From Acidobacteriota bacterium (lineage in GTDB: Bacteria; Acidobacteriota; Terriglobia; Acidiferrales; UBA7541), in NCBI GenBank assembly GCA_003224055.1, contig QHYE01000070.1:1-33179 (forward strand): a DNA stretch of 33,179 nucleotides, given 5' to 3'. The notes under the pieces are model-generated. The model was not told where the DNA came from. It did not search any database and worked only from the letters and a program-made list of their open reading frames with translations. The position numbers were made by a program, and so were the translations under genes. Of this stretch, positions 17,272 to 24,951 are shown piece after piece. Positions within the stretch are counted from its first letter, which is position 1. Each line of letters opens with the position of its first letter.

Positions 17272-18042
17272 CTAGCCGGAGTAGAAAAACAGCGCGGCCG
17301 CCATGTCGTCGTGCTGTTCGCGGCCCCGCGAAAATTCTTCGACCGCGGAAAAGATTTTGCTCAATAGTTCGGCCGGCGAAAGATGGCGCTTGTTGCTGCA
17401 CAGTTCCTGCAAACGCTCGACTCCAAATTGTTCCTCGTTCCGGGCGAACGCGTCGGTGATCCCGTCGGTACAAAAAAGCACGGAATCGCCCGGGCTCAGC
17501 CGCACGGTCAGAGTTTCGTAGCGCGTGTCCGGGAACAATCTCGGGGGAATCCCCGAGAGCTCCAGAGGGCGGCAGCCATCGGCGCAGAGGTGAAAAGGGC
17601 CGGGCATGCCTGCGCTTGCGATACGCAGATCTCTGCTGCGCGGATCAAACACCGCATACTGGATGGCCGCGTGCCGCCGGGGCATGCCGCGCATCAAAAG
17701 GCGCCGGTTGAAAGTGGCAAGAGCCTCGCTCGGGGAAGTGCCGGTCTTATGAACGCCTCGCAGAGTCCCCACGGACAGCGCCGCGTACAGTGCAGCCGGT
17801 AGCCCTTTGCCGGAGACATCACACAGATAAATGCCAAAGGTTCCATCCATCAGCTGGAAATAGTCCAGGAAATCGCCGCCAACGGCAGCGATGGGCTTGA
17901 ATTCGTGGGAAATCGTCACGGGACCGGCGTGAAGCGATTCTGCGGGAAGCATTTCCGCCTGGATAGAACGCGCCTCTTCGAGTTCTTCTGCCCGTAGTTT
18001 TTCAAGGGCATGCAAGTCAAGCGGCAGCGCAAGCGTATTCAT
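17272..18042 (-). CDS. SpoIIE/RsbU-type PP2C serine phosphatase
   Basis: This 256-residue phosphatase removes phosphate from serine or threonine on partner proteins, classically anti-sigma-factor antagonists. A short N-terminal helix (about 10-30, LEEARSIQAEMLP) is the usual linker of RsbU-like proteins. Metal-binding aspartates are visible: GGDFLD (Asp57), CDVSGKG (Asp75), CTDGITD (Asp193) and QHDDMAA (Asp245/246). No sensor domain (PAS, GAF, HAMP or receiver) precedes it, so it may respond through a partner protein. No anti-sigma or antagonist gene is nearby. The next gene downstream encodes a FecR-domain protein, but 129 bp and a possible promoter separate them. Confidence 0.9.
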   Translation of the reverse strand: MNTLALPLDLHALEKLRAEELEEARSIQAEMLPAESLHAGPVTISHEFKPIAAVGGDFLDYFQLMDGTFGIYLCDVSGKGLPAALYAALSVGTLRGVHKTGTSPSEALATFNRRLLMRGMPRRHAAIQYAVFDPRSRDLRIASAGMPGPFHLCADGCRPLELSGIPPRLFPDTRYETLTVRLSPGDSVLFCTDGITDAFARNEEQFGVERLQELCSNKRHLSPAELLSKIFSAVEEFSRGREQHDDMAAALFFYSG

Positions 18043-19496: not shown

Positions 19497-20273
19497 ATGC
19501 ATCCTGCGATTCCACACCTGATCGAGCTCCAACGGGTCGACCACCAGATTGCCACTTTGCGCGCGGAACTGGAGACCTTTCCGAAACGCATCCGCGAGGC
19601 CGACGCCAAGCTGAGCGGCGCGCGCGCGGAACTCGCTGCCGCAAAAGAGACCCATACCCAGGGCGCCACGGAGCGCAAGAAACTTGAATTCGATGTGCAG
19701 CAGTGGAAAGACCGCGCCCGGAAGTACCGCGATCAGAGCGGCGCTGTAAAAACCAACGAATCCTTTAAAGCCCTGCAGCACGAAATCGCTAACGCCGAAG
19801 CTGAAGTAGCCAAAGCCGAAGACCGCCAGCTGGAGGTCATGATGGCCGGCGAAGAGCTCGATCGGCGCGTGAAGCTCGCAGAGTCCAGATTGAAAGAAGC
19901 CGAGCAGGCCGTCGCGGCGGAACGAAAAGAGATTCAGGCGCAAGGGGCAGAGAAGAAGAAACAGCTCGATGCCGTGCTTGCCGAGCGCGAGCGAATCATC
20001 GGTCCCGTGCCGGAAGATTTGCGCGAGCTCTATGTGCGCATCGCCAGGCGCCACAACGGCACGGCCATGGCCGAGGCCCGCGATGGGCAGTGCCGCGGTT
20101 GCGGCATGCGAGTCCTGCCGCATATTCTTCAAGAACTGCGCACCGAGACTAACGAAGAACTCTATCGGTGCGAGAGTTGCGGCCTCATCCTCTACACACT
20201 GGAACCGATTCCCGTGGCAACCCCTGCTGGCGGTTCCGCGAGCGCAGCTTCCGGCGCGTCGACAAATTCCTGA
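19497..20273 (+). CDS. Coiled-coil protein with C-terminal C4 zinc ribbon (zf-RING_7)
   Basis: This 258-residue protein has a long N-terminal coiled coil (about 8-165, rich in Glu, Lys and Ala heptads) and a C-terminal zinc ribbon with Cys199-x2-Cys202 and Cys225-x2-Cys228, the layout of the zf-RING_7 / CT398-like family. The role of the family is unclear; nucleic-acid or secretion-related binding has been suggested. An alanine/serine-rich tail follows residue 240. The stop overlaps the ATG of the RNase HI gene by one base (TGATG), which implies translational coupling; zinc-ribbon and RNase HI genes are often neighbours in bacteria. There is no ribosome site before its ATG, in line with the extended -10 element just upstream. 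Confidence 0.88.
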   Translation: MHPAIPHLIELQRVDHQIATLRAELETFPKRIREADAKLSGARAELAAAKETHTQGATERKKLEFDVQQWKDRARKYRDQSGAVKTNESFKALQHEIANAEAEVAKAEDRQLEVMMAGEELDRRVKLAESRLKEAEQAVAAERKEIQAQGAEKKKQLDAVLAERERIIGPVPEDLRELYVRIARRHNGTAMAEARDGQCRGCGMRVLPHILQELRTETNEELYRCESCGLILYTLEPIPVATPAGGSASAASGASTNS

Positions 20274-20935
20274 TGCCGCGCCGCACACCAACTCCCCGCG
20301 GCAAAGGCCTGTTCGGTGATGCGCCTGCAGAGCCGAAACCCGCTGCCTATCGTGCAAACATCGACGGCGGCTCGCGAGGCAATCCGGGTCCCGCCGCTTA
20401 CGGCGTGGTCATCCGCGATGGCAGTGGCGAACTCGTCGCGAAACTGAAAAAGTATATCGGCCGCATAAGCAACAACGTCGCCGAGTATTACGGGCTCATC
20501 GCGGCGCTCGATTATGCGCAGTCGCACAAGATCCGAGCTCTGCGTATCGAGAGCGATTCCGAACTCCTGGTGAAGCAGATGCGCGGACAGTACAAGGTGA
20601 AGAGCGCGGATTTGCAGCCGCTCTTCGAACGCGCGAAGAAAATGGCGCAGGGATTCGAATCATTCCGAATCGATCACGTTTATCGCGAGCAGAACCGCGA
20701 AGCCGACGCTCTTGCGAACGAAGCGCTGGATGCCGCCGAGGGCGTTGTCCCCAGTATGCCCGGGGCGAAAAAAAGCGAAGCGCCCGCTGCGAAACCCGAA
20801 GCGCCCGGCGCCAAGCCGGAGCCTCGCCGCATCCGCGCGCGCTTTCGCGGCGGAGTTCTTTATCTTCTGGAAGATGTCGAATTGCCGGACGGCATGGTGG
20901 TCGACGTTTCCATTCACCTTCTCCCCAAGTCCTGA
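20273..20935 (+). CDS. RNase HI family protein with extra C-terminal DUF104/AF2212-like domain
   Basis: This 220-residue protein has an RNase H domain at about 24-155 that cuts the RNA strand of RNA-DNA hybrids. All four acidic catalytic residues are visible: Asp31 (NIDGGSRGNPGP), Glu71 (NNVAEYYG), Asp95 (ESDSELL) and Asp145 (QNREADALAN). A linker rich in Pro, Ala and Lys (about 155-185) joins it to a short C-terminal unit (186-216, RIRARFRGGVLYLLEDVEL then PDGMVVDVSI). That unit resembles the small AF2212/DUF104 antitoxin fold, in which a GGVL-type turn and an LPDG turn are typical; this is by eye only. The start overlaps the stop of the zinc-ribbon gene, so an upstream extension of the frame to 20168 is rejected. 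Confidence 0.9.
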   Translation: MPRRTPTPRGKGLFGDAPAEPKPAAYRANIDGGSRGNPGPAAYGVVIRDGSGELVAKLKKYIGRISNNVAEYYGLIAALDYAQSHKIRALRIESDSELLVKQMRGQYKVKSADLQPLFERAKKMAQGFESFRIDHVYREQNREADALANEALDAAEGVVPSMPGAKKSEAPAAKPEAPGAKPEPRRIRARFRGGVLYLLEDVELPDGMVVDVSIHLLPKS

Positions 20936-20953: not shown

Positions 20954-21988
20954 TTATTTCAAAGCGTACGAACGATAGAGAGTGTCGCGCTGGGCCGGGA
21001 TGAAGCCAGCGTCGGAAATAATGCGGCGGAGCTCGGCTTCGTTGGTGCGGTTTTTCACCCCGGCGGCGAAGACAACATTTTCTTCGATGAGGATGCTGCC
21101 GACATCGTCGGCGCCGAACTGCAAACCGACCTGGCAGACTTTAATCCCCGGAGTGAGCCAGCTGGACTGGATGTGGTCGAAGTTGTCGAGATACAGACGG
21201 CTGACGGCAAGCGTCTTCAAATAATCGATGGCGGTGGTTTCCTGGATTTTCTTGCCGAGCGCGGTATTTTCCGCTGCAAACACCCAGGGGATGAAGGCGG
21301 TGAATCCTCCCGTATCCTCCTGAATTCGCCGCAGCCTTTCGAGATGATTCACGCGATGGCGCAGCTCTTCTCCGCAGCCGAACATCATGGTGGCCGTGGT
21401 GCGAAGTCCGAGCGAATGCGCTATGCGATGCATTTCTTCCCAGTCATCGCTGGTGCACTTCAGACGGGCAATCTTTGCGCGGACTTCGTCGTCGAGAATC
21501 TCCGCGCCCCCGCCAGGAATGGATTGCAGCCCGGCATCCATCAGGCGCTGAATGGTCTCGCGAATGCTGATCTCACTCACTTCCGCGATGCACAGGATTT
21601 CCGGCGCCGAAAAGCAGTGCAGATGGACCTGCGGATAGCGTGCCTTCAAAGAGCGCAGTAGATTTTCGTAGTAGCCGATTTGCAAGTCGGGATGCAGTCC
21701 GCCCTGGAGCAGAATTCCGGTGCCGCCGAGCTCCAGCATTTCGTCGATTTTCTTGTAGATCTGTTCGAAGGACAGAATGTAGCCATCCTTGGAGCCGAGC
21801 GGGCTGTAGAACGCACAAAAGGAGCAATACTCGGTGCAGAAGTTTGTGTAATTGATGTTGCGGTCGATCTGGTAGGTCACAACACGCGGGTCGTTTTTCT
21901 TGAGGCGCAACTGGTGCGCGGCCATTCCGATGCCTACGAGGTCATCGGATTCAAGCATCTCCAGGGCTTCTTGTTTGGTCGGTCCCAC
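20954..21988 (-). CDS. mqnC: Cyclic dehypoxanthinyl futalosine synthase (MqnC)
   Basis: This 344-residue radical SAM enzyme cyclises dehypoxanthine futalosine in the futalosine route to menaquinone. The [4Fe-4S] motif is Cys51-x3-Cys55-x2-Cys58 (CTEYCSFC). The segment GGTGILLQGGLHPDL is characteristic of MqnC rather than MqnE. The length fits the family, if on the short side. The start is a GTG at 21988 with AAGGA 6 nt upstream. It lies 59 bp downstream of mqnA on the same strand, so the two early and middle steps of the pathway are cotranscribed. It is convergent with the RNase HI gene, 18 bp away. Confidence 0.93.
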   Translation of the reverse strand: MGPTKQEALEMLESDDLVGIGMAAHQLRLKKNDPRVVTYQIDRNINYTNFCTEYCSFCAFYSPLGSKDGYILSFEQIYKKIDEMLELGGTGILLQGGLHPDLQIGYYENLLRSLKARYPQVHLHCFSAPEILCIAEVSEISIRETIQRLMDAGLQSIPGGGAEILDDEVRAKIARLKCTSDDWEEMHRIAHSLGLRTTATMMFGCGEELRHRVNHLERLRRIQEDTGGFTAFIPWVFAAENTALGKKIQETTAIDYLKTLAVSRLYLDNFDHIQSSWLTPGIKVCQVGLQFGADDVGSILIEENVVFAAGVKNRTNEAELRRIISDAGFIPAQRDTLYRSYALK

Positions 21989-22047: not shown

Positions 22048-22959
22048 TTACGATCTTGCCGTGACGGTTTTCATTTCGACCCATTCGATCGGTTTTGCTA
22101 TTGGAATCAGTCCGAGCCTGGCTGCGTGCTGGTAGTACAAGTCCAATCCGCGGCGATTTTCGGAATCGAGAGAGAAATCGATGTTTCGGCGCAGGTACGT
22201 TTCAATCGCCGGCGCCGGCAATTCTAAATCGATCGAGGCGTCGTGGCTGATTTCCGGGATGCGCGACAAGCCAAAATCGCGAGATGCCAGAAAATCCGCT
22301 GTTAGTTCGGGTGTGGCCATATCACGTTTCACTGCCCAGACAGCCAGCACTGCCGGCAATCCCGTCAGACTCCGCCATTCGCTCACCACATCATAAACGT
22401 AAAGCAGTTCCGAACTGGTGATGCCGAACGCTGCCGCAGGGCAGATAGTTTGTCCTTCTGCACCGGCGCGACTGTCTTTTTCAATTCCAAGCGAAATGCG
22501 CAGAGCAGGGTCGCCGATGAGCAGCACGGCGTCAGCTTGCTCGAGCATTTCTGCCAGATCCGGCGTTGCTTCAAAAAACTCTGGCGCGATCTTCCATTTT
22601 TCGGCGCACAGAATTCGCGTCAGTGCCTGGGTGCTGCGCGAACTTCGGTCCAGCGCGAAGCTCTTCGCCTGTTCGACCGGTTTTTTCGAAACAATGAGCA
22701 GGCTGCGCACCTGTTTCTTCGACGCAATGGCCATATCCGGCAGGATCATCAGATCATCGATGCGCTGATATTCAATCGCCGGGATGATGGCGATATCCGC
22801 GCGGCCGGTGCGCAAATCTTCCGAGCACTGGGACGGGACGGTGAACGACAAGTCGTATTTCCCGTGCAGCGGGCCGTTCGTGAACCCCCAGACGAGCGGG
22901 GCCGTGTTCAGGTATTGAACGATAGAGATGCGAAGTTTGGTCACGGGTCGAGAGATCAT
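22048..22959 (-). CDS. mqnA: Chorismate dehydratase (MqnA)
   Basis: This 303-residue enzyme removes water from chorismate to give 3-[(1-carboxyvinyl)oxy]benzoate, the first step of futalosine-dependent menaquinone synthesis. It has the periplasmic-binding-protein-like fold of the family: ISIVQYLNTAPLVWGF at the N-terminus, the PSQCSEDLRTGRADIAIIP segment, and LLIGDPAL later. I start it at the ATG at 22959; an open frame continues to 23292 but the added 111 residues look like noncoding sequence. An extended -10 element ends 11 nt before this ATG, which supports the choice. mqnC follows 59 bp downstream; mqnB, mqnD and mqnE are not in the window. Confidence 0.92.
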   Translation of the reverse strand: MISRPVTKLRISIVQYLNTAPLVWGFTNGPLHGKYDLSFTVPSQCSEDLRTGRADIAIIPAIEYQRIDDLMILPDMAIASKKQVRSLLIVSKKPVEQAKSFALDRSSRSTQALTRILCAEKWKIAPEFFEATPDLAEMLEQADAVLLIGDPALRISLGIEKDSRAGAEGQTICPAAAFGITSSELLYVYDVVSEWRSLTGLPAVLAVWAVKRDMATPELTADFLASRDFGLSRIPEISHDASIDLELPAPAIETYLRRNIDFSLDSENRRGLDLYYQHAARLGLIPIAKPIEWVEMKTVTARS

Positions 22960-22970
22960 CTGTAAGTTCC

Positions 22971-22979
22971 AGTATAGCA
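22971..22979 (-). promoter_or_regulatory. Extended -10 promoter of mqnA
   Basis: On the minus strand TGC followed by TATACT matches an extended -10 promoter (5 of 6 in the core). It ends 11 nt before the mqnA ATG, with no convincing ribosome site between, so the transcript would start only about 4-5 nt ahead of the start codon. No good -35 is seen, as is common for extended -10 promoters. Confidence 0.5.
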
Positions 22980-23068
22980 AACGCTGTTTTTGCGGGCGGC
23001 AACCTTCTGTGGCGAGGAATCGTTCGATGATTTCGGAAGGTTGAAAAAGCGTGTAAAGGGAGGAAGAC

Positions 23069-23218
23069 ATGGCAAGATGCATCCCAGTGCAGCCGCGCTG
23101 AGGAGGTTGGAGATACATGAGCGATGGGTGGTGTACCGTAACATTATCTACCCCGGGGGTCTCGGATGTGTGGCAGACAAAGGACTTGCGGGGCATTATT
23201 CTTACAGACAGACAGTGA
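23069..23218 (+). other. Two tandem tiny ORFs with good ribosome sites (speculative)
   Basis: A 10-codon frame (23069-23101, MARCIPVQPR) is preceded by GGGAGG. Its stop overlaps GAGGAGG (23100-23106), which could serve the next frame, a 33-codon ORF (23117-23218) starting MSDGWCTVTLSTPGV. The pairing of two Shine-Dalgarno-like sites with tiny frames is suggestive, but no promoter is clear, no gene follows on this strand, and purine-rich runs arise by chance. I do not recognise the peptides. Confidence 0.2.
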
Positions 23219-23263
23219 CGACAGAAGTGGAAATTGCCGAGGTCTTGCTTGGATCGGTGCGGT

Positions 23264-24514
23264 TTAAGCGGGTCCTCTGCGGAGGGCGACAAGTTGCGAT
23301 CCCACGGGAACGCCTTTGGCGACTTTCACGCGAATCACCGCTTCGAACGGTTTCAACTCTCCTGAGTTTGAAACTGAGAGCCGCAAAAGCAACTCTTCCA
23401 AAGAATTTTGCTGGCAGACGTATTCGACGGCAGCTTGTGTGCCGATCGTGGTGGCGCCTGCCAGAATCAGAACCGAATGTGCAGGATTCAATCCTCGCTT
23501 TAGCGCGATGATGGAATAATCTTCTGTCAGGGTTTCGTCTGGCGGAGACGGAAAAAATTCCTTCGGCTCGCCCGATTCCGGATGAAAATTGATGATCTCC
23601 ATGGTGCCCGTGCGCGGCCCGGAAGTGATCTGTTTGAAAGTGAATTCCTGAGTGTTTGGCAACTCCAAGAGCGTTAGATTTTCCGAAGGCGAGCCAATGA
23701 AGATGAGATCGTTGTTCTTGGCGTCATCGAGAGAAAACAAGCTACCGCGCTTGACGCGAATTTGCTGATGAAGTTTTGCGAAAACAGTATCGAGAGCGTG
23801 CACCGCCAGCACTTCGCCGACTCCGGTGTAATGATCCGTGATCACGGCCCCGGAATCCCTGGGACGATTGTAGTAGCGCATGCCAATGTACGGCCGGCCG
23901 ACGAAGGCGGCGTTGCTGAAGATGACCCACGGTTCCTGAGGCCCAGTGAGAAAGCCTTTCCAGAAAACGTGAAAAGCAACCGGCGCATCCGGACTGTCGC
24001 TTGCCACCCGGGCTTCCGCGATTCTGCGGTTCAGGAACCGGTCGGTGGCAACGGCGACGGCGGAGGCCAGAATAACAGAGAGTGCAATGACTGCGACGAT
24101 CCAAGCACGAGAGGTCCGGCCGCTAGCCTCCAAATTGTTCGGGGCCTCGTGAGGGGCATTCGCGTGGTTCCGCCCCGTCCCGCGGGTGCGCTGATGGAAA
24201 GTGAGCGCATAGCTGCCCTTGGGCATTTCCAGCACAAAATGGTCGTCAACCCCCTCGGAGGCATAGTACTCAGCCAATTTTGCACGAAGGCGGCCCGCTT
24301 GCACCCGTACCATCGAATCTAGATGCGGATCGAAGTCTTTCTGGCGTCCGAAGACCTCGGTGGCAATTTGGTACTCCTTCGGAGATACACCTGGATGCTC
24401 AAGGGAGTGGTTCGCCAAGTATTGGAGCAGCTTGCAGAGGGATTCCGAGCCATGGAGGGCACGGCTGCCGAGAAGCTTCTCGAGCTGCGTGAGTTGTTGG
24501 GGCCGATCAGTCAT
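23264..24514 (-). CDS. Membrane-anchored winged-helix transcriptional regulator
   Basis: This 416-residue protein has an N-terminal winged-helix-type domain (about 8-108, with SPKEYQIATEVFGR, the helix VRVQAGRLRAKLAEYY and the wing MPKGSYALTF), one membrane helix (about 138-157) and an outer domain of about 255 residues with no motif I recognise. The layout recalls ToxR/CadC one-component sensors: the outer domain would sense a ligand and the inner domain bind DNA. The ATG at 24514 is preceded by GAGGTGG; upstream residues to 24592 are rejected as untranslated. It is divergent from the TonB receptor gene across 476 bp, so that receptor is its likely target. A -10-like box and direct repeats lie just upstream. 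Confidence 0.82.
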   Translation of the reverse strand: MTDRPQQLTQLEKLLGSRALHGSESLCKLLQYLANHSLEHPGVSPKEYQIATEVFGRQKDFDPHLDSMVRVQAGRLRAKLAEYYASEGVDDHFVLEMPKGSYALTFHQRTRGTGRNHANAPHEAPNNLEASGRTSRAWIVAVIALSVILASAVAVATDRFLNRRIAEARVASDSPDAPVAFHVFWKGFLTGPQEPWVIFSNAAFVGRPYIGMRYYNRPRDSGAVITDHYTGVGEVLAVHALDTVFAKLHQQIRVKRGSLFSLDDAKNNDLIFIGSPSENLTLLELPNTQEFTFKQITSGPRTGTMEIINFHPESGEPKEFFPSPPDETLTEDYSIIALKRGLNPAHSVLILAGATTIGTQAAVEYVCQQNSLEELLLRLSVSNSGELKPFEAVIRVKVAKGVPVGSQLVALRRGPA

Positions 24515-24543
24515 CCGACCACCTCGGGAACCGGCGTGACAGC

Positions 24544-24564
24544 ATTGTAACACCAAGGTAACAC
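24544..24564 (-). promoter_or_regulatory. Direct repeats overlapping a -10 box of the regulator gene
   Basis: GTAACAC occurs at 24547-24553 and again at 24558-24564, 11 bp apart, about one helical turn; a related GTAAC is at 24602-24606. On the minus strand TACAAT (24544-24549) overlaps the first copy and lies 29 nt before the regulator ATG. OmpR/ToxR-type winged helices often bind such direct repeats, so autoregulation is plausible. Confidence 0.35.
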
Positions 24565-24951
24565 ACTTCGCATCTCTTTGTGGGGCGACCACTTATGCCG
24601 CGTAACCGTATCAGACCCAAAGAGACTTTCCTCGTTACTCAAAAAACTGATAGAAGGCATCATAATTATTCGCCGCGCCCTGATTGGGTGCCCGCCCTCT
24701 TATACCCCGAGCTAGGGTAGACAAAGCTGAGGGAACGGAATAGTTCCGGGACGCTGGCGAAGCCGAAATAAAGTTGAGGAGTTTGGGGGCCGTTCGCTAC
24801 GGACAGGTCGGTTTGGCAAGTTGCCGTCTATTCCATAATTTCATTTTGAGAAGCGCTTAGCGAAGTGCTAATTGGTTTAGGCGTGGACGGTAAGTGTTCC
24901 AATAAACCGACAAGATTCGCAAGTTTCTTCTTTTCGTAGCGTGCAGCCGCA

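Follow-up and report, generated by a model that had tools for sequence, protein, structure and literature searches.

What might a domain of antitoxin type be doing at the C-terminus of an RNase HI? This question is raised by a gene in a 33,179-nucleotide stretch of DNA from an Acidobacteriota bacterium (contig QHYE01000070.1, positions 1 to 33,179 of the forward strand), which is called the window here in its full length. The gene encodes a 220-residue protein in which an RNase H domain is followed by a flexible linker and a short C-terminal tail. The tail was identified as an AF2212/DUF104-like domain, is conserved in this architecture, sits on the single RNase HI copy of the genome and has neither a toxin neighbour nor a consistent partner gene; having been kept for so long, it probably helps the enzyme to pair up or to grip its target. 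The gene and its main parts are as follows.

20273..20935, + strand: RNase HI gene with a C-terminal AF2212-like domain, 220 residues (open reading frame, Pfam, orthologues); ATG at 20273, stop codon at 20933-20935
20357..20725, + strand: RNase H type 1 domain, residues 29-151 (Pfam, alignment, fold match)
20726..20827, + strand: Ala/Pro/Lys-rich flexible linker, about residues 152-184 (low mid-linker model confidence; variable in relatives)
20828..20932, + strand: AF2212-like (DUF104, PF01954) domain, residues 186-214, and the last six residues (Pfam, profiles, models)

When the whole protein was scanned against Pfam at E<=10, RVT_3, RNase_H and AF2212-like were returned and nothing else. AF2212-like (PF01954) matched residues 186-214 with 24.8 bits against a gathering score of 21.6 (E 2.9e-5), and the isolated 36-residue tail reached 26.5 bits (E 8.9e-6). 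The match spans profile positions 4-32 of 59 and thus covers the N-terminal half of the model rather than a full-length domain; many free-standing PF01954 matches in the phylum, to which the genome searches were confined, likewise end near position 34. All 27 full-length members of profile A1 matched PF01954 at E<=1 (best 7e-13), as did 32 of 40 isolated tails. The eight unmatched tails were taken to be those of family f4, whose rows are equal in number (in the handles used below, f denotes a family, g a genus, L a locus and G a genome; f1 and f2 lie within the order of the window).

A profile built from the 40 tails, eight of them from f4 (A3), retrieved AF2212 (2NWT) from all PDB sequences with E 1.9e-8, the next match being aerolysin at 0.29. 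When the tails were compared by profile-profile alignment (hhalign) with a set of free-standing DUF104 sequences from this phylum (A4, 18 proteins), the probability was 98% for all 40 tails and 98.5% for 16 tails of the order alone. With a hidden Markov model (HMM) built from the antitoxins only, all 51 tails read in the order (32 from g1, 15 from the rest of f1 and four from f2) outscored every one of 1,780 shuffled C-termini, as did 11 of 13 tails from other families of the class; chance resemblance was therefore rejected. Judged by these profiles, the tail is a DUF104/AF2212-like domain. The sequence-only reading that preceded this work had proposed this resemblance together with its test by profile-profile search, and the search gave a significant match.

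The structure of the protein was predicted with AlphaFold2. In the full-length model, based on 37 aligned sequences, the predicted local distance difference test score (pLDDT) was 95-98 across residues 31-150, fell to 51-57 in the middle of the linker and rose again in the tail, where ten-residue blocks gave 81-92. Modelled alone, the tail had a mean pLDDT of 85.3 (80-92 by blocks) and a predicted template modelling score of 0.48. The prediction was thus not of an unstructured tail, which would have spoken against the earlier proposal, but of an ordered hairpin followed by an unpaired stretch at the place of a would-be third strand, which suits a dimeric barrel. Foldseek returned two PDB matches for the tail model, the best being 2NWT (probability 0.75, TMq 0.65, E only 1.3), an entry that contains two AF2212 chains. 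VIA-align superposed 38 residues of the model on 2NWT with Z 2.9 and a root-mean-square deviation of 3.0, a length too short for significance. The predicted fold is consistent with the profile results and would be insufficient alone.

The catalytic part was examined in the same way. Pfam matched RVT_3 to residues 29-151 (E 1.1e-27) and RNase_H to residues 30-151 (E 1.2e-7). The RNase H domain is complete, and the linker has the Pro/Ala/Lys composition that had been ascribed to it; both its length and its sequence vary among relatives. Residues D31, E71, D95 and D145, which we take to be the catalytic D-E-D-D of RNase HI, were invariant in 37 of 37 aligned proteins. By sequence, the protein has a type 1 RNase H domain with this tetrad, and cleavage of RNA-DNA hybrids is predicted. 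The best fold match of the domain was Halobacterium RNase H1 (4E19, E 1.6e-16), followed by 3HST, and its nearest PDB sequence was Rv2228c (3HST). Because the model contains four helices (67-84, 97-103, 115-125 and 138-156), none of them between 103 and 115, and because 4E19 is the best fold match, the domain appears to lack the basic "handle" of Escherichia coli RNase HI. RNases HI without this basic protrusion, the Halobacterium enzyme among them, are described in Kochiwa 2007 (PMC1950709), which also cites a proposal according to which the missing handle is compensated in B. halodurans by a fused hybrid-binding domain (HBD).

The genes next to free-standing DUF104 proteins were also considered. 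Ten next genes, the cleanest next frames among 20 free-standing loci, comprised seven PIN genes, two PemK/MazF genes and one without a Pfam match at E<=0.01. Since PIN or PemK/MazF genes adjoin them, these free-standing relatives are regarded as antitoxins, and COG2880/DUF104/AF2212 is predicted in PMC2701414 to be a PIN-linked antitoxin of the AbrB superfamily. The free-standing genes at L111 (582-926, - strand) and L114 (1233-1538, + strand) are followed by PemK/MazF rather than PIN, so DUF104 adjoins two toxin families in the phylum. At L109 (767-1105, - strand; G383, f5), a free-standing AF2212-like domain is joined to a second domain, DUF5678, and the next frame was not PIN-like by eye; this may be a variant outside the usual toxin pairs.

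The earlier suggestion that the tail was domesticated from a toxin-antitoxin pair fits these results, since nine of ten tested free relatives adjoin PIN or PemK/MazF genes. Its companion suggestion, that the tail targets RNase H to a partner nuclease, was not borne out: no other DUF104 place was found in the genome of the window at E<=10, no toxin gene was found beside the fused copy, whose neighbours are a zinc-ribbon gene and an MqnC-type gene, and the C-terminal extension of the antitoxins is absent. In antitoxins generally, such an extension is what binds the toxin; free-standing proteins run on for about 30-80 residues past the shared domain, and the fused proteins stop. It is improbable in the extreme that the fused tail is still an antitoxin acting in trans on a toxin of the PIN or MazF kind. 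What favours such a role is the neighbourhood of the free relatives (PIN in 7/10, PemK/MazF in 2/10) and the presence of seven PIN-domain places in the genome; set against it are the missing extension and the identity of the downstream neighbour, an MqnC-type gene in the opposite orientation.

The fused and free domains also differed in the charge of the eight residues before the invariant Gly, corresponding to the first strand. The mean charge was +3.0 in f1 (n=29) and -1.67 in free-standing proteins (n=18); the p of 1.8e-9 for this comparison ignores the relatedness of the sequences and should not be read as a real probability.

These findings may be explained as follows. We give about an even chance to the reading that a captured AbrB-like module dimerises and tethers the handle-less RNase HI to nucleic acid. 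The tail would be the N-terminal half of an AF2212/DUF104 domain that was taken over a single time, from a PIN- or MazF-type pair, when the class was young, with loss of its toxin-neutralising extension. On its flexible linker, the tail would dimerise and so join two catalytic domains, and its basic first strand would contact nucleic acid and hold the enzyme on RNA-DNA hybrids or on nearby DNA, a part like that of the unrelated hybrid-binding domain in other RNases H. Catalysis would benefit from the tail.

The distribution of the architecture bears on this explanation. RNase HI matches were present in 83 of 95 genomes of the order at E<=1e-10. From these 83, 55 genomes were read (L032-L081 and L122-L126, the window's own included), a sample that was not random and consisted of the 30 best matches, 20 picked for spread and five with an early-ending match. 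According to the tail HMM, the tail was present in 51 of the 55; the exceptions were L079, whose protein ends shortly past its RNase H domain, and three loci of g12 (L075, L122 and L123), which carry a MaoC-like domain instead. A contig pattern scan found 28 of 30 loci tailed (L002-L029) and two tailless (L030, L031), with a bias toward near relatives, as its patterns were those of the window protein and one lay within the tail. In a phylum draw of 297 genomes, profile A1 matched 104, made up of the window's own, 30 of the class (all f4) and 73 from outside the class. The tail was not reached in any of the 73 out-of-class genomes, where matches stop at or before position 194 of 219 of the A1 profile, and no tail was seen in the six frames read among them. 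PF01954 was found in 35 of the 297 genomes at E<=0.05, and none of these matches overlapped an RNase HI match except the window's own.

Among 29 f4 loci read, 21 were tailed and seven tailless, as counted with A3, a profile that already holds eight f4 tails; L136, whose match extends to A1 position 211, was left out of the tailed count. A draw of 299 genomes of the class gave 203 matching genomes at E<=1e-8. Among the matches listed, 20 further class loci included nine tails scoring at least 12 with the tail HMM (f86, f88, f89 and f4), five f87 tails scoring 1.6-8.5, one tail-like by eye only (L144) and five tailless proteins, two of these with an acyl-CoA dehydrogenase instead. The tail thus recurs, with conserved length and pattern, in six families of the class at least (f1, f2, f4, f86, f88 and f89), and the architecture is stable across the order and other families of this class of soil Acidobacteria. 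In tailed loci, the envelope of the domain stops 0-4 residues short of the C-terminus, L067 (15) being the exception; in the 20 further loci, the aligned part of the tail ends up to eight residues before it. A plasmid search by tblastn with the RNase HI gave 20 records, of which none reached 80% query coverage; the five matches listed all end by residue 142, so they are uninformative on the tail.

Pooled ratios of nonsynonymous to synonymous substitution rates (dN/dS; 83 pairs, 28 sequences) were 0.07 for the RNase H domain, 0.17 for the tail and 0.30 for the linker, values usable only as a ranking because synonymous sites were near saturation and pairs were not independent.

Other domains were also observed at the C-terminus of RNase HI. 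In g12 (L075, 1926-2942, - strand; L122; L123), a MaoC-like dehydratase replaces the AF2212 tail, which the genus-mate L074 keeps; the assignment was made by Pfam for L075 and by similarity for L122 and L123. In g192 (L153, 2288-3940, + strand; L154), RNase HI is fused to a complete acyl-CoA dehydrogenase, assigned by Pfam in L153 and by eye in L154; a third genome of this genus, G434, appears to have a similar 554-residue frame. Outside the class, L096 (1863-2696, - strand) joins RNase HI to a 4'-phosphopantetheinyl-transferase (AcpS-like, PF01648) domain. MaoC, acyl-CoA dehydrogenase and AcpS are three partners from acyl metabolism joined to one and the same end of the enzyme.

Several results weigh against a captured, nucleic-acid-tethering module. 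The f4 tails, with the eight-sequence consensus MLRGFVRDGVVHLLGG..LPDG.FVKII, were detected by PF01954 in none of the 30 f4 genomes (E<=0.05). When f4 was left out of the HMMs, one of 23 f4 tails (order-only HMM) and none of 23 (antitoxin-only HMM) scored above the best shuffle. The sole sequence link was given by profile-profile comparison, with 94% probability to the order tails and 85% to the antitoxins; as the sequence HMMs failed, the assignment of f4 tails rests on this comparison, position and length. The charge of the first strand was weaker in f4 (+0.88, n=8) and neutral in f2 (0.0, n=3). The total charge of the 28-residue core did not differ between fused and free domains (p 0.79), for which reason whole-tail charge was rejected as a sign of nucleic-acid binding; taken together with the basic first strand, the equal total indicates that charge was redistributed and not raised. 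When the tail label was mapped on a tree built from 87 RNase H domains, it changed no fewer than seven times, five of the changes being forced by starred branches, and such repeated change indicates that the tail is not indispensable. Finally, the presence of unrelated enzyme domains at the same place indicates that the C-terminus of RNase HI tolerates fusions.

The last two points also support the strongest rival, namely that the tail is a near-neutral fusion which folds, contributes little to RNase HI and is kept by drift. Repeated loss is suggested by the changing tail label and by the seven tailless proteins among 29 f4 loci read, and promiscuous fusion by the MaoC (three g12), acyl-CoA dehydrogenase (two g192) and AcpS (L096) domains; there is also a precedent, as, according to PMC7466739, the mycobacterial RNase HI-CobC fusion most probably became fixed through genetic drift. 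Long retention argues the other way: the tail is found in six or more families with conserved length and pattern and a dN/dS of 0.17, and the other fusions were each seen in one genus or one genome only. On balance, we consider drift unlikely. The RNase H tree is based on 127 columns, has long branches and lacks a reliable root, and it cannot separate gain from loss; one early gain of the tail followed by several losses would be its natural reading.

A partner gene was also considered as an explanation of the tail. The features upstream of the RNase HI gene are given below.

19497..20273, + strand: CT398-type coiled-coil/C4 zinc-ribbon gene, upstream operon neighbour (Pfam)
20271..20275, + strand: TGATG stop/start overlap between the zinc-ribbon gene and the RNase HI gene (sequence)

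The TGA of the upstream gene (20271-20273) shares bases with the ATG of the RNase HI gene (20273-20275), so the coupling to a coiled-coil zinc-ribbon gene was read correctly from the start. In Pfam, the upstream protein matched CT398_CC with 61.1 bits (cut-off 27) and the C4 zinc ribbon with 27.1 bits, just below the cut-off of 29.1. In all 50 order loci from L032 to L081, the zinc-ribbon gene precedes RNase HI on the same strand, and it does so in 18 of the 20 further class loci. It also lies upstream of tailless RNases HI (L079, L095, L096, L098, L099 and L158-L160), at close distance in the out-of-class loci L095, L096, L098 and L099. Beside the RNase HI of f4, no zinc-ribbon gene was found in any of 16 loci tested, 11 of them tailed (tblastn, E<=0.01, few kb around). 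Adjacency and tail therefore each occur without the other, and the zinc-ribbon protein, once put forward as a possible partner, was discarded as an explanation of why the tail exists. As the gene adjoins tailless RNases HI too, the operon pair looks older than the tail and independent of it.

Two further explanations are touched by these data. The tail might be a docking site for a partner such as the zinc-ribbon protein, SSB, the replisome or RNA polymerase, for instance through a heterodimer with an AbrB-like protein. AbrB-superfamily domains are dimerisation modules, which agrees with this idea, as does the constant upstream position of the zinc-ribbon gene in the 50 order loci; the idea is opposed by the independence of neighbour and tail and by the lack of another PF01954 domain in the genome, other AbrB families not having been searched, and we regard it as rather improbable. 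It is still harder to believe, and very improbable in our view, that the tail is a DNA-binding autoregulator through which RNase HI keeps its own operon repressed in the manner of antitoxins, for the f4 loci tested lack the upstream zinc-ribbon gene, yet most of them keep the tail.

The copy number of RNase HI was considered as well. The window RNase HI was the sole RVT_3 place over cut-off and the sole PF00075 place found in the genome (completeness of the source assembly, 95.6%), which also encodes one RNase HII. Nine class genomes without this RNase HI were examined: five had a strong PF00075 (RnhA-type) match instead (G034, G056, G057, G281 and G383), and in the other four (G018, G053-G055), PF00075 was not found at E<=0.001. 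That no second RNase HI was found in the genome, and that five of nine genomes without it carry an RnhA-type protein, supports a housekeeping role. A fuller version of the tethering explanation may tentatively be put forward, with less confidence than the tethering itself: the only RNase HI would have captured half of an antitoxin barrel early in the class (probably Terriglobia) and become a bivalent, DNA-tethered enzyme in which the tail replaces the missing handle. If this were true, RNase HI would have a third independent grip on the hybrid, after the handle and the HBD, and an antitoxin domain would now be part of a housekeeping enzyme of replication and R-loops.

Some further features of the locus were noted. 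One of them lies ahead of the RNase H domain.

20309..20314, + strand: N-terminal "LF" short motif, L13 F14 (class-wide conservation)

This motif was present in 32/32 proteins of g1, 17/18 of the rest of f1, 25/28 of f4, 1/4 of f2/f3 and 0/6 from outside the class, with or without the AF2212 tail; its version in L094, QTSLF, resembles a sliding-clamp motif. Downstream, on the opposite strand, Pfam identified a radical SAM gene with a CofH/MqnC C-terminal region (MqnC-type; 20954-21988, - strand) and a VitK2_biosynth match (22048-23292, - strand), which together resemble genes of the futalosine menaquinone route. An MqnC-type match on the strand opposite to RNase HI was seen in 45 of the 50 order loci L032-L081. 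The window also contains a SpoIIE-type phosphatase gene (17272-18042, - strand) and a 442-residue open reading frame with no Pfam match at E<=1e-4 (23264-24592, - strand).

Most of what is known of antitoxin domains comes from gene pairs that are mobile and short-lived; the domain described here has been retained as a component of a housekeeping enzyme across much of a class. Because tailed, tailless and domain-swapped orthologues coexist, the family would offer, should the tail dimerise or bind nucleic acid, a clean natural experiment on the requirements of RNase HI other than its catalytic domain. No report of an RNase HI-AF2212/DUF104 architecture was found in the literature searched, subscription journals lying mostly outside its coverage.

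The locus can be compared with four known systems. The upstream gene belongs with the CT398/MSMEG_4306/HP0958 zinc-ribbon proteins (PMC5947703; CT398_CC, 61.1 bits), and in the window it is an operon neighbour only. With the AF2212-like/DUF104/COG2880 antitoxins (PF01954, 2NWT), the tail shares the same short beta domain; it differs from them in being fused to RNase HI, in having no adjoining toxin, in covering positions 4-32 of 59 and in its basic first strand. RNases HI with an N- or C-terminal dsRHbd/HBD, from B. halodurans and others, likewise carry a small accessory domain on an RNase HI apparently without a handle; PMC1950709 reports a dsRHbd at the C-terminus in Gloeobacter, Bdellovibrio and Myxococcus. 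The accessory domain of the window enzyme is a different one, and membership in this group was rejected, as the Pfam scan at E<=10 gave no HBD-type family. The bifunctional RNase H/acid phosphatases (Rv2228c, MSMEG_4305; NF005567, 3HST) have a close RNase H domain and gave the best NCBIfam match. Membership in this group was also rejected, since the match reached 142 bits against a cut-off of 326 and ended at profile position 156 of 378. Like the window protein, enzymes of the Rv2228c type bear a second domain on a variable linker; theirs is a CobC-type enzyme, whereas that of the window protein is a 35-residue AbrB-like domain.
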